A stretch of 64,000 bases of DNA, taken from NCBI GenBank assembly GCA_028287305.1, contig JAQBPX010000033.1:1-64000 (forward strand), read 5' to 3'. The notes beneath the pieces were generated by a model. That model did not search any database. It was not told the origin of the DNA and was given only the letters and a program-made list of their open reading frames with translations. The translations under genes and the position numbers were made by a program. Shown here piece by piece: positions 9,205 through 28,290 of the stretch (the first letter of the stretch is position 1; each line of letters starts with the position of its first letter). This DNA comes from Gemmatimonadota bacterium (GTDB lineage Bacteria > Gemmatimonadota > Gemmatimonadetes > Gemmatimonadales > Gemmatimonadaceae).

Positions 9205-9561
9205 ATGAGCACGGTCCAGCAGCCAGACGTCGCGGTCCTCGTCACAGACGCCGCCGCGGCCGAGGTTCGGAAGTTCATGGAGCAGGAGGGAGTCGATCCC
9301 GCCATCGGCGGTCTGCGCGTGAGCGTGCAGCCCGGCGGATGCTCCGGTTTCAAGTACGGGCTCCTCATCGAGGATGCGCCCGCGGATGACGACATGGCCA
9401 TCGAGCAGCAGGGATGGAAGGTCCTCGTGGACCCCTTCTCGGCCCAGTACATCAACGGCGTCGTGATCGATTACGTCTCGTCGATGCAGGGCTCCGGCTT
9501 CACCTTCAAGAATCCGAACGCCACCGGCGGCTGCGGCTGCGGTAGCTCCTTCTCCGCCTAG
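9205..9561 (+). CDS. A-type iron-sulfur carrier protein (IscA/ErpA/HesB family)
   Basis: This 118-residue cytoplasmic protein delivers Fe-S clusters to apo-enzymes. The three conserved cysteines are C46 (GGCSGFKYG), C110 and C112 (GGCGCGSSF). AGGAGG lies 7 bases before the ATG, and a TATATT at 9175-9180 could be the -10 of its own promoter in the 38-base gap. The gene stands alone between two symporter genes without the rest of an isc or suf operon. ActB and other FeS proteins in the window are plausible clients. Confidence 0.93.
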   Translation: MSTVQQPDVAVLVTDAAAAEVRKFMEQEGVDPAIGGLRVSVQPGGCSGFKYGLLIEDAPADDDMAIEQQGWKVLVDPFSAQYINGVVIDYVSSMQGSGFTFKNPNATGGCGCGSSFSA

Positions 9562-9594
9562 CGTCGCGATTCACCGGGCCAGGTCACGCTCCTG

Positions 9595-11118
9595 ATGCCC
9601 GCGCACTTCAATGCGATCGACCTCGCCGTGTTGCTGGCCTACCTGGCCGGCACCACGGCGCTTGGCATCTGGGTGGGCCGCCGCCAGAAGGACGCGAAGG
9701 ACTACTTCGTGGCCGGCCGTGACATCCCGTGGTGGGCGGTGCTCTTCTCCGTGGTCGCCAGCGAGACGAGCGCGCTCACCTTCATCTCGATCCCCGGCCT
9801 GGCGTACGCCACCGACCTGGGGTTCCTCCAGATCGCCTGCGGCTACCTGCTCGGACGCATCGTGGTCGCCAACGTGCTGCTCCCCCGCTACTACCAGGGT
9901 GAGCTCGTCACCGCCTACGCCCTGCTCGAGCAGCGCTTCGGCCTTGCCACGCGGCGCTTCACGTCAATCGTGTTCATGGTCACGCGCGCGCTCGCCGACT
10001 CCGTGCGCGTGTTCGCGACCGCCATTCCGATTGCACTGATCCTCGGCAGCAGCGTGCCGAAGCAGTACGTCATGCCCGTGGCAGTGCTGATCCTCGGCAC
10101 GCTCACGATCATCTACACGTATCGCGGCGGGATGCGCGCGGTGGTATGGACGGAGATCGTGCAGGCATGCGTCTACCTGCTCGGCGGCATCTCGGCGATC
10201 GTGCTGATCGGGCAGGCCGTGCAGGGCGGATGGGGCGCCATCATCCCGCAGGTGAGCGCCGCAGGCAAGCTGCACCTCATCAACACGTACACAGGCTTCG
10301 ACAAGCCGCACACGATCTACGCGGGGCTCATCGGCGGCGCATTCCTCGCCATGGCGAGTCACGGGGCGGACCAGTTGATCGTGCAGCGCCTGCTTTCCGC
10401 GCGCTCCCTCAAGGACGCGCAGGTGGCGATCATCGGCAGCGGCGTTGCCGTCATCGCGCAGTTCACGCTCTTCCTGTTCATCGGGCTCGGGCTCTGGGTG
10501 CTCTACCAGGGGCGCACCTTCGCCACGCCGGACCAGATCTTCCCCACGTTCATCATCGAGCAGATGCCGCACGGCCTCGTGGGGCTGCTCATCGCGGCGA
10601 TCCTCGCGGCGACGATGAGCACGCACTCCGGGGCGATCAACTCGCTGGCAGCGGCCGCGACGCACGACATTTATCTTCCCCTCACCGGCCGGAGCGCCGA
10701 CGACCCGCGCACGCTGCGTGTCGGCAAGCTGTTCGCGCTGGCATGGGGTGTCGTGCTCACCGGCGGCGCCCTGCTGTTCCCCGAGAACCAGAAGCTGCCC
10801 GTGGTGGTGGTCGCGCTTTCCATCGCGAGCTTCACCTATGGCGGGCTGCTCGGCGGCTTCTTCCTCGGAATCTTCTGGAAGCGGGCTCGCCAGCGCGATG
10901 CGATCGCGGGGATGGCCGTGGGCATCACGGCAATGAGCTTCATCGTCTTCGCGAAGCAGATGATCGCGGTGGTTCCCTCCCTCGCTCCCACCCTGGGGCC
11001 GCTGGCGACGATCGCCTGGCCCTGGTATGTGCTCATCGGCACGAGCATCACGCTCGCGACCGGAATTCTCGTCTCGCTCGCGCCCCACGGCGACGGGCCC
11101 GTTCAGCGGAAGGCATGA
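9595..11118 (+). CDS. Sodium:solute symporter (SSS family), second copy
   Basis: This is a 507-residue transporter with about 13 hydrophobic segments. It starts with IDLAVLLAYLAGTTALGIWVG and has KDYFVAGRDIPWWAVLFSVVASETSALTF, the sodium-binding region, split here for reading as KDYFVAGRDIP and WWAVLFSVVASE. AAILAATMSTHSGAINSLA near residue 345 is the second sodium-site motif. It is the standard length for sialic acid/glucose-type SSS transporters and is shorter than the copy upstream. Its stop overlaps the start of the kinase gene by ATGA, which favours a sugar or amino-sugar substrate that is phosphorylated on entry. Confidence 0.9.
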   Translation: MPAHFNAIDLAVLLAYLAGTTALGIWVGRRQKDAKDYFVAGRDIPWWAVLFSVVASETSALTFISIPGLAYATDLGFLQIACGYLLGRIVVANVLLPRYYQGELVTAYALLEQRFGLATRRFTSIVFMVTRALADSVRVFATAIPIALILGSSVPKQYVMPVAVLILGTLTIIYTYRGGMRAVVWTEIVQACVYLLGGISAIVLIGQAVQGGWGAIIPQVSAAGKLHLINTYTGFDKPHTIYAGLIGGAFLAMASHGADQLIVQRLLSARSLKDAQVAIIGSGVAVIAQFTLFLFIGLGLWVLYQGRTFATPDQIFPTFIIEQMPHGLVGLLIAAILAATMSTHSGAINSLAAAATHDIYLPLTGRSADDPRTLRVGKLFALAWGVVLTGGALLFPENQKLPVVVVALSIASFTYGGLLGGFFLGIFWKRARQRDAIAGMAVGITAMSFIVFAKQMIAVVPSLAPTLGPLATIAWPWYVLIGTSITLATGILVSLAPHGDGPVQRKA

Positions 11119-12050
11119 CAGCGATCGTGATTGGCATCGATGGCGGCGGTTCGAAGACGCGCGCCATCGTGGCGGATGAACATGGCAACCAGGTAGCCGA
11201 GGTGGTGGGCGGCGCGAGCGCCGTTCGCCCTGGCGCGGTGGAGGCAAGCGCCGAGGTGATCGCCGCCACGGTGGCGGATGCGCTCGCGAGCTGCGAGATG
11301 ACGCACGTGATCCCGCGCGTCCTCTGCGTCGGCGTGGCCGGCGTGGGACGCGAGCCGGAGCGGCAGGCCCTCTGGCAGGCGCTGGTGGAGCGCGAGATCG
11401 CCGCCGAGGTGGTGGTGCACACCGACTTCGGCGTGGCACTCGACGACGCCTTCGCCGAAGGCCCGGGCATCCTGCTCGTGGCGGGCACGGGGTCGGTGGC
11501 ATTCGGTCGTGGTCCCGCGGGTGCCACGGCGCGCGCCGGTGGCTGGGGGCCGGTGTTCGGCGACGAGGGCGGTGGAAGCTGGATTGGCCGCCGCGCGCTG
11601 TCGATCGTGTCGGCGGCGAGCGACGGTCGTGAGCCCGAGTCGGCGCTCACCGGCGCACTGCTCACCGCCGCGCAGCTGAACGAGACGTCGGAGCTGGTGG
11701 GCTGGGCCGCGAAGGCGACCCCCGCCGAGCTCGCGTCGCTCGCACCCGTGGTGATGAGCGTGGCGGACGCCGGCGACCTGCGCGCGAACTCGCTGCTCTC
11801 GCTGGCGGTGGAGGAGCTCGTGGTGCACGTGCGCTCGCTCGCCCGGCAGCTGTTCGGCGATGAACGCGCTGCAATCTCCGTGGCGCTCAGCGGCGGCCTG
11901 CTCAAGCGAGGCACGACACTCCGCAAGCGACTGGAGCACCGCCTGAGGTCGGCGGTGCCGGGGGCTCAGGTACGGGCCGAGGAAGTCATTCCGGCGCGAG
12001 GTGCCGTGCGTGGCGCGCTGCGATATCTCGGCGAGTCGATGCCGGTGTAG
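11115..12050 (+). CDS. BadF/BadG-type ATPase, probable N-acetylglucosamine kinase
   Basis: This is a 311-residue actin-fold (ASKHA) kinase. The phosphate-1 loop is IGIDGGGSKTRAIV (6-19). The second phosphate loop is VAGTGSVAFG, followed by GGWGPVFGDEGGGSWIGRRAL, which is characteristic of eukaryote-like GlcNAc kinases. Near the C terminus is ISVALSGGLLKRG, the adenosine motif. Translation is coupled to the symporter upstream by ATGA. It would phosphorylate imported GlcNAc or a related amino sugar; glucosamine or MurNAc-like substrates cannot be excluded. Confidence 0.87.
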   Translation: MTAIVIGIDGGGSKTRAIVADEHGNQVAEVVGGASAVRPGAVEASAEVIAATVADALASCEMTHVIPRVLCVGVAGVGREPERQALWQALVEREIAAEVVVHTDFGVALDDAFAEGPGILLVAGTGSVAFGRGPAGATARAGGWGPVFGDEGGGSWIGRRALSIVSAASDGREPESALTGALLTAAQLNETSELVGWAAKATPAELASLAPVVMSVADAGDLRANSLLSLAVEELVVHVRSLARQLFGDERAAISVALSGGLLKRGTTLRKRLEHRLRSAVPGAQVRAEEVIPARGAVRGALRYLGESMPV

Positions 12051-12093
12051 TTCTGCTGTTGCGCGCCGGGGCCGGTTGCTCCGTCGCGCGGGT

Positions 12094-12278
12094 GCCGGTC
12101 TACGCGGAATGCGCGGACGAACTGAAGCGGATTGCGCGGAGACTACGACTACAACTGATCCTTGAAAAATGCACACCCTTTGGGCGCGAGCCCGGAGGAT
12201 GTGCATTTTTTCAAGTCGTTTGCGTTGAAGTTTCCGCGGATGTCCGCCCTTCAGTCCGCGACGTCCGCGTAGACCGGC
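12094..12278. repeat. Long imperfect palindrome between convergent genes (bidirectional terminator-like)
   Basis: Arms of about 80 bases read as imperfect inverted copies. The outer 15 bases (12094-12108 and 12264-12278) match perfectly. The inner arms pair an A-run plus TGCACA with TGTGCA plus a T-run, around a central GGGC-GCGA-GCCC hairpin with a GNRA loop. GCGGA units recur along both arms. The element lies between the kinase (plus) and the symporter (minus), so it can terminate transcription from both sides. It is much larger than needed for that job. Confidence 0.65.
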
Positions 12279-12292
12279 CCCGCCGCGAAGAG

Positions 12293-13570
12293 CTAGGCCT
12301 CCACTACGGGCGCCGGCGCGACGGTCGGGAACTCTCCTTCCCACCTCGCCATCACGACGGTCGCGAGGCAGTTGCCGAGCAGGTTCACGCTGGTCCGCGC
12401 CATGTCCATCAGCGCGTCCACGCCGAGGATCACGGCGACTGCCTGCAACGGCAGGCCGAACGACGCCAGGGCTCCGGAGAGGATCACCAGCGAGGCGCGC
12501 GGCACCGCGGCGACGCCCTTCGAGGTGAGCATCAGCGTCACCATCATCAGGATTTGCGTGCGCAGCGGCATGTCGATCCCGGCCGCCTGCGCCGCGAACA
12601 CGCTCGCCACCGCCAGGTAGAGCGTGCTGCCGTCCAGGTTGAAGGAGTAGCCGGTGGGCAGCACGAAGGCCACGATGCGGCGCGGCACGCCGAACTTCTC
12701 CATGCGCTCCATGGCCAGCGGGAACGCCGCCTCGCTCGAGGCCGTAGTGAACGCGATCAGCCACGGCTCCTTCACCGCCTTCACGAACCGGCGGATGGGC
12801 ACGCGCGCAACCAGCGCGACCGGCAGCAGCACGCCGAGGATGAACACGATCAGCGCGCCGTAGAGCGTGCCCACCAGCATCCCGAGGCTCCTCAGCACGC
12901 CGAGCCCGCTCTGCGAGACGGTGACCGCGATCGCCGCGCCGATGCCGATCGGCGCGTACGCCATCACGATGCCCACGAACTTGAACATCACCTCGGACAG
13001 GCTCTCGCAGAACGAGAGCATGAACAGCTTGCCCTTCCCTTCCACGCGCGAAAGCGCGACGCCGAAGATGATGGCGAAGAACACGATCTGCAGCACTTCG
13101 TTCGCCGCCGCCGCCTCGAAGAAGCTCTGCGGCACGGTGTGCTCGATCACGCTGCTCAGGGTCGCGTGCTTGGTCGCGAGCTCCTGGCCGGTCGTCGCGC
13201 TCGCGGTGTCGAGCACGATGCCACGCCCCGGCCTCACGAGGTTCACCGCCACGAGGCCCACCACCAGCGCCAGGGTGGTGACCACCTCGAAGTAGAGGAT
13301 CGACCGGAATGCCAGCCGTCCCACGCGCTTCATGTCGTCGCCGTGTCCCGCGATGCCCACCACCAGCGTGGCGAACAGCAGCGGCACGATCAGCGACTTG
13401 ATCATCCGCAGGAAGATCGTGCTGAGGATCTTCAGGTCGGCGGCGGCCCAGCCATGCGGCGTGAGCCACGAGACGTGCTTCGCGGCGTCCGACACGGGAT
13501 ACAGGTATCCGAGCGCGACACCCACGACCATCGCCACGATGATCCACTGCGTCTGCGACAGGCGGCGCAT
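12293..13570 (-). CDS. Dicarboxylate/amino acid:cation symporter (DAACS/GltP family)
   Basis: This 425-residue transporter has eight or so membrane segments and two re-entrant loops. The family hallmarks are the Ser-rich loop FTTASSEAAFPLAMERM, then GYSFNLDGSTLYLAVASVF (the NMDGT-like site, here NLDGS), then AAVPRASLVIL and DALMDMARTSVNLLGNCLA, which holds the Asp/Arg/Asn that bind the substrate carboxylates. It carries glutamate, aspartate or C4-dicarboxylates with protons or sodium. The ATG overlaps the permease stop as TGATG, so it is the last gene of a four-gene transport operon. Confidence 0.92.
   Translation of the reverse strand: MRRLSQTQWIIVAMVVGVALGYLYPVSDAAKHVSWLTPHGWAAADLKILSTIFLRMIKSLIVPLLFATLVVGIAGHGDDMKRVGRLAFRSILYFEVVTTLALVVGLVAVNLVRPGRGIVLDTASATTGQELATKHATLSSVIEHTVPQSFFEAAAANEVLQIVFFAIIFGVALSRVEGKGKLFMLSFCESLSEVMFKFVGIVMAYAPIGIGAAIAVTVSQSGLGVLRSLGMLVGTLYGALIVFILGVLLPVALVARVPIRRFVKAVKEPWLIAFTTASSEAAFPLAMERMEKFGVPRRIVAFVLPTGYSFNLDGSTLYLAVASVFAAQAAGIDMPLRTQILMMVTLMLTSKGVAAVPRASLVILSGALASFGLPLQAVAVILGVDALMDMARTSVNLLGNCLATVVMARWEGEFPTVAPAPVVEA

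Positions 13571-28217: not shown

Positions 28218-28290
<73 letters not shown>

Follow-up and report, generated by a model that had tools for sequence, protein, structure and literature searches.

A gene-less hairpin between convergent genes of a Gemmatimonadota bacterium, probably an old member of a class of dispersed elements built like 23S rRNA IVSs

The window analyzed here is a stretch of 64,000 nucleotides from the genome of a Gemmatimonadota bacterium (assembly GCA_028287305.1, contig JAQBPX010000033.1). In this window, a long imperfect palindrome separates two convergent genes, whose stop codons are at 12050 and 12293 (Table 1). The left gene presumably encodes a BadF/BadG-type ATPase-like protein, and we take the product of the right gene to be a dicarboxylate/amino acid:cation symporter-like protein. 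A preliminary description, made from the letters of the window, had pointed out the convergent genes, a perfect inversion of the outer 15 bases, arms that stay similar around the core, and an A-run/T-run core with a GNRA-type loop, and all of these proved correct. The outer ends match at 15/15 positions, and complementarity extends from there both inwards and outwards, with the arms of the whole element 77% identical. The segment designated I1 spans 35 nt and is 83% complementary. The GNRA loop, GCGA, closes the core stem, and the A-run and T-run lie at the base of this stem. RNA folding, a check proposed in the same description, gave -118.1 kcal/mol for the plus strand (z = -12.4; equaled by 0/200 shuffles) and -107.4 for the minus strand (z = -11.8). 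The ORFs of the stretch include no GxxExxY or IVP ORF inside the palindrome. A search of the window against Rfam assigned the palindrome to no family, and a comparison with phage records gave no match to it. The sole Rfam match in the window is a tRNA gene at 28218-28290 on the minus strand.

Table 1. Features of the palindrome and its neighbors (positions in the window)
Feature	Position	Strand	Remarks
Whole gene-less hairpin element	12084..12288	.	Inverted repeat, left 12084-12144 and right 12229-12288; copies in the genome
Outer left arm, GCCGGTCTACGCGGA	12094..12108	+	Perfect inverted match to 12264-12278
Outer right arm	12264..12278	+	Exact reverse complement of 12094-12108
Left inner arm, GCGGA units (CGCGGACGAACTGAAGCGGA, type A unit)	12104..12140	+	
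Right inner arm (TCCGCCCTTCAGTCCGCG, type B unit)	12229..12263	+	
Core stem with GCGA loop (12186-12189) and A-run/T-run	12161..12215	+	One terminator-like match, minus strand
Extra subfamily 1 outer end (GCGCGCCGGGGCCGGTTGCTCC; begins GCGCGCCGGGGCCGGT)	about 12062..12083	+	Precedes left arm
Left convergent gene	11115..12050	+	Conserved neighbor in relatives
Right convergent gene	12293..13570	-	

The palindrome belongs to a multicopy family. When the host genome (4.37 Mb, 39 contigs) was searched for other copies of the arms, as the preliminary description had suggested, the outcome was strongly positive, with 55 matches at E<=0.001. We grouped these into 38 places, the window and some half copies included, and a search with the second outer end added three more (L188, L191, and L192), giving a total of about 41 places with nested GCGGA arms. 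The copies share an anatomy in which an outer end is followed by GCGGA-bearing inner arms and a variable core, forming nested hairpins of about 100-360 bp. Outer ends are of two kinds, GCGCCGGGGCCGGTTCCTCGGA in subfamily 1 and GCGCTCCACACGTAGGGGTC... in subfamily 2, and the inner arms occur in the variants CGGACGAACTGAAGCGGA, CGGACTGAAGGGCGGA, and CGGACGAACTGATACGGA. Folding of 35 copies gave z < -4 for every one (mean, -13), and the left and right arms of a copy are more alike than arms taken across copies (0/5000 permutations, 32 copies). Comparison of the copies in the host genome showed no pair with identity above 87% over most of the length, which argues that the family is old; no recent movement was seen. 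An intrinsic terminator as a family feature was rejected, as only 2 of the 35 copies, L017 and the one in the window, have a T-run of at least 6, and the terminator core stressed in the preliminary description is thus not a trait of the family.

Three further observations concern the modular build of these hairpins. A plain small hairpin beside a putative tRNA gene (L187, contig C4 67961-68019) consists of subfamily 2 outer ends alone; it is either an outer hairpin with nothing inside or what a deletion has left. At L193 (contig C24 338957-340182), inverted subfamily 2 outer ends stand 1.2 kb apart around a 272-amino-acid ORF. L189 and L190 carry differing inner modules within identical outer ends. 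From their sequences, L187 and the inner modules of L189 and L190 could be read as traces of nested insertion, and deletion would fit equally well.

Beyond the host, an exact search with 20-mers of the arms in 84,980 species genomes found six scattered stretches, which we take as chance, so the GCGGA family looks lineage specific. A search for GCGGA elements among relatives, covering 40 genomes with the host included, matched three, the host and two others (G014 and G025) with weak, single-arm matches.

The copies are concentrated at the 3' ends of genes. With gene calls from a simple custom codon-usage script, not a published gene finder, the 38 places divide into 16 convergent, 18 tandem, and 2 divergent junctions and 2 contig ends, the two divergent places being the gene-bearing copy described below and a half copy. 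With stricter ends, the distribution is 15 convergent, 18 tandem, and 1 divergent (n = 34) versus 13, 132, and 27 for junctions free of copies (P = 8e-7). By our own count in the 16 convergent places, arms start about 0-20 bp past the stop codon at 27/32 ends. Twenty gene-less copies of other arm families in the host genome are distributed similarly (9 convergent, 10 tandem, 1 divergent). No such preference is seen among the 13 coding elements (2 convergent, 6 tandem, and 5 divergent). Elsewhere in the window, two more convergent gaps contain no copy. The bias may reflect tolerance, target preference, or use as a stop signal, and a terminator role for the hairpins is possible.

One member of the family carries a gene between the same arms. 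At L015/L049 (contig C28, about 10129-10677), GCGGA arms surround an ORF that matches NCBIfam TIGR04256 (GxxExxY) with an E value of 9e-33. Its arms are 85-86% identical to those of the window copy over 55-56 nt, and the two arms match 25/35 and 24/35 gene-less copies at E<=1e-4. The residues D, E, and K of the motif, which we take to be PD-(D/E)XK-like, are invariant in 18 GxxExxY family members, L015/L049 included. This is the only gene-bearing copy among the roughly 41 GCGGA places, so the gene could be a hitchhiker.

In the host genome, genes of GxxExxY (PF13366/TIGR04256, a predicted PD-(D/E)XK nuclease) and of IVP/S23 (PF05635/TIGR02436, a four-helix bundle) are associated with inverted repeats. 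There are 7 GxxExxY (PF13366) and 8 IVP (PF05635) genes, and the 300 bp on each side of a gene was compared for inverted repeats, with shifted positions as controls. Inverted repeats were found at 10/15 genes versus 0/30 controls at E<=1e-5, and at 12/15 genes versus 1/30 controls at E<=0.001; 5/15 genes failed the stricter test. L052/L066 (GxxExxY) and L061/L072 (IVP) have no inverted arms detectable within 300 bp and are decayed, domesticated, or of a different lineage. The left arms of ten coding elements, joined as one query, matched many other places in the genome. Twenty of these, chosen from the arm families of the IVP loci L056 and L059 and the GxxExxY loci L051 and L053, all proved to be hairpins of 146-228 bp without a gene. 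Together with the GCGGA family, these four make at least five arm families of the host genome that have both coding and gene-less members.

Presence at orthologous sites is lineage specific. Orthologs of the right neighbor were taken from relatives, and 18 loci were read, including that of the host. In seven relatives, the convergent genes are adjacent with a measurable gap, of -125, 5, 23, 86, 99, 109, and 163 bp, and none of the seven (0/7) has a GCGGA element at this junction. The 86-bp gap contains a plain hairpin (L235). In the 99-bp gap of G012, 26/26 nt are identical to an arm of that genome's own IVP element; in the 109-bp gap of G027, 92% identity over 26 nt links the junction to an IVP locus of G027; and the 163-bp gap of G002 holds an unrelated hairpin of 7-nt repeats, other units of which match an IVP locus of G002. 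A 617-bp IVP element of G024 corresponds to 7 bp in G039, a member of the same genus, with the flanking convergent genes intact and their ends conserved, and no target-site duplication is visible at this one clean junction. Two other differences were observed between these two genomes. A second IVP gene (L132, about 9446-9760, versus L178) has a 210-bp internal deletion in G039 and is a decaying copy at an old site. A 91-bp gene-less hairpin of another kind (ACAGGCTAAAGCCTGT...; L132, 6755-6845) is present in G024 and absent from the G039 site, and copies of it occur elsewhere in G039 (C7:9418, C4:41469, and C63:39021).

The association of these genes with inverted arms extends beyond the host. 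Including the host, 17/40 genomes searched have GxxExxY and 35/40 have IVP. In a sample of relatives' loci made up of the best-scoring loci among all matches, from which 9 further loci were dropped because of short contigs, inverted repeats occur at 33/48 genes versus 1/96 controls at E<=1e-5 (IVP, 21/24; GxxExxY, 12/24), and at 34/48 genes versus 7/96 controls at E<=0.001. On plasmids of other bacteria (14 records out of 8 and 41 matched), arms were found at 9/14 loci versus 0/28 controls at E<=0.001 (IVP, 8/9; GxxExxY, 1/5). The association is thus weaker for GxxExxY than for IVP everywhere. The arms often consist of runs of 7- to 8-nt units. Gene-carrying hairpins of similar build occur in several bacterial phyla. 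Operons interrupted by an IVP gene include cas6/cas4 and that of the two ribonucleotide reductase subunits. Inverted heptamer arms flank the IVP gene between cas6 and cas4 on Anabaena pANA02 (L264), the one between ribonucleotide reductase subunit genes, on the opposite strand, on Nostoc edaphicum pNe_5 (L265), and the one between cas10 and cmr3 in Picosynechococcus (L271).

Short tandemly repeated repetitive (STRR) heptamers of cyanobacteria have been reported as simple tandem repeats. Such heptamers, arranged in runs, make up the arms at cyanobacterial IVP loci, but here they form inverted arms around IVP genes. The window family also resembles MITEs, being short, gene-less, and multicopy, with inverted repeats that it shares with a coding sister. 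It differs from MITEs in that the coding sister has no transposase of a known family; at the one clean present/absent junction, that of the IVP element of G024, no target-site duplication was seen.

The closest likeness is to the intervening sequences (IVSs) of 23S rRNA, some of which lack an IVP/S23 ORF. In Coxiella and Leptospira, IVSs are described as having terminal inverted repeats with a 28-bp stem, an S23 ORF, and heptameric repeats; their distribution is sporadic, they are termed a selfish element of unclear origin, and although they have been known for more than 25 years, neither their function nor their origin is clear (PMC4990558). This anatomy recurs in the IVP elements of the present analysis, with a long stem, heptameric repeats, a single small IVP ORF within the loop, and a sporadic distribution. 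The window copy likewise has a long stem formed from terminal inverted repeats. However, copies of its family lie between protein genes, outside rRNA helices 9, 25, or 45, and it is ORF-less, with a coding sister that carries GxxExxY rather than IVP; IVP does occur in other arm families of the host genome. Because it lies outside rRNA and its coding sister has GxxExxY, the window copy is not an IVS, and by this comparison it appears to behave like a gene-less relative of IVS-type elements. In open-license PMC full text, we recognized no paper on IVP or GxxExxY genes within dispersed inverted repeats.

The palindrome is probably an old, gene-less (MITE-like) member of a class of dispersed hairpin elements with the architecture of 23S rRNA IVSs, and it seems to represent a type of mobile element that is little known, beyond a mere transcription stop signal. 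The copies elsewhere in the genome and the element-free site in relatives support the miniature mobile element, one of three possibilities raised in the preliminary description along with an RNA and a protein-bound site; the terminator core is not a family feature, and an RNA role is not supported by the strand test. Against this reading stand the identity of at most 87% between copies over most of their length and the lack of an evident target-site duplication at the one clean junction. The lone gene-bearing copy among the GCGGA places, the absence of a 3'-end bias in coding elements, the 5/15 host genes that fail the stricter arm test, and the weaker association of GxxExxY also count against it.

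A different account, which we consider rather unlikely, is that the repeats are a transcription stop or insulator, of whatever origin, that the host has recruited and that selection keeps at gene ends. The concentration of copies at gene ends, the start of the arms shortly after stop codons, and the one terminator-like match in the window copy agree with it, as does the finding that in subfamily 1 (20 copies) the outer arms pair better with their own partner than with others (0/5000 permutations). Yet the inner arms of this subfamily show no co-variation (the observed value was reached by 577/5000 permutations), long T-runs are rare, strand asymmetry is absent, 5 or 23 bp suffice at the same junction in relatives, and two further convergent gaps of the window do without a copy. 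Selection at the RNA level, for a functional RNA or a site of RNase III processing, is improbable. The folds are very stable, and in a consensus fold of 28 copies, 6 of 20 pairs have two-sided compensatory changes, all in the outer stem. However, the transcribed strand folds better in 15/29 tandem contexts (P = 0.72), so the RNA suggested in the preliminary description gains no support from the strand test, the G-U excess is not significant (P = 0.21), and Rfam gave no family match.

Other readings concern how the hairpins move. REPs are multicopy GC-rich imperfect palindromes at gene ends, and the many palindromic repeats of this kind found here at gene ends would suit REP/REPIN elements mobilized by a RAYT (Y1/HUH) transposase. 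This is very improbable, since a search for Y1/RAYT transposase (PF01797) had 0 matches in the host genome while the same search was positive in 5/14 controls, and since these hairpins, at about 100-360 bp, are much longer and nested and have coding sisters. Products of a group II intron, DGR, or retron were also rejected, as the host genome has 0 matches to reverse transcriptase (PF00078). It is doubtful, too, that the GxxExxY and IVP genes are passengers in pre-existing hairpin repeats that something else moves. The single gene-bearing GCGGA copy and the different position preferences of coding and gene-less copies would be expected of passengers, but each of five distinct arm families in the host genome includes a coding member and several gene-less ones, and the association of gene and arms holds in other phyla, where the arms are unrelated.

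Under the preferred reading, that of dispersed hairpin elements with gene-less derivatives, a full member has one small gene (GxxExxY or IVP/S23) enclosed by a pair of long inverted arms, in which short units recur, and a gene-less member keeps the arms, closed by a short loop. The copies would have arisen by transposition. Because the two enzyme families searched for, PF01797 and PF00078, gave no match and strand asymmetry is absent, a DNA-level route is favored, in which the hairpin itself would be recognized. The substrate may be the hairpin as single-stranded or cruciform DNA, on which the protein of the coding member, or host enzymes recruited by that protein, would act in trans in the case of gene-less copies. 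Gene-less copies would persist mainly after stop codons, where insertion may be tolerated or even useful as a bidirectional stop or insulator.

A broader proposal, for which we would claim slightly less than an even chance, is an unrecognized, widespread bacterial class of selfish hairpins, each a long inverted repeat of short tandem units with a single IVP or GxxExxY gene, that spawn gene-less hairpins. The IVSs of 23S rRNA would be only those members that landed in rRNA. The elements would spread with no transposase, reverse transcriptase, or HUH protein involved, perhaps by nesting at the tips of hairpins already in place, terminators being one example. Both GxxExxY and four helix bundle proteins are frequent annotations that carry no assigned function. 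Should the two families prove to be encoded by dispersed hairpin elements that have gene-less derivatives, a single hypothesis would account for where IVSs come from, for two orphan protein families, and for a class of intergenic palindromes in bacteria.
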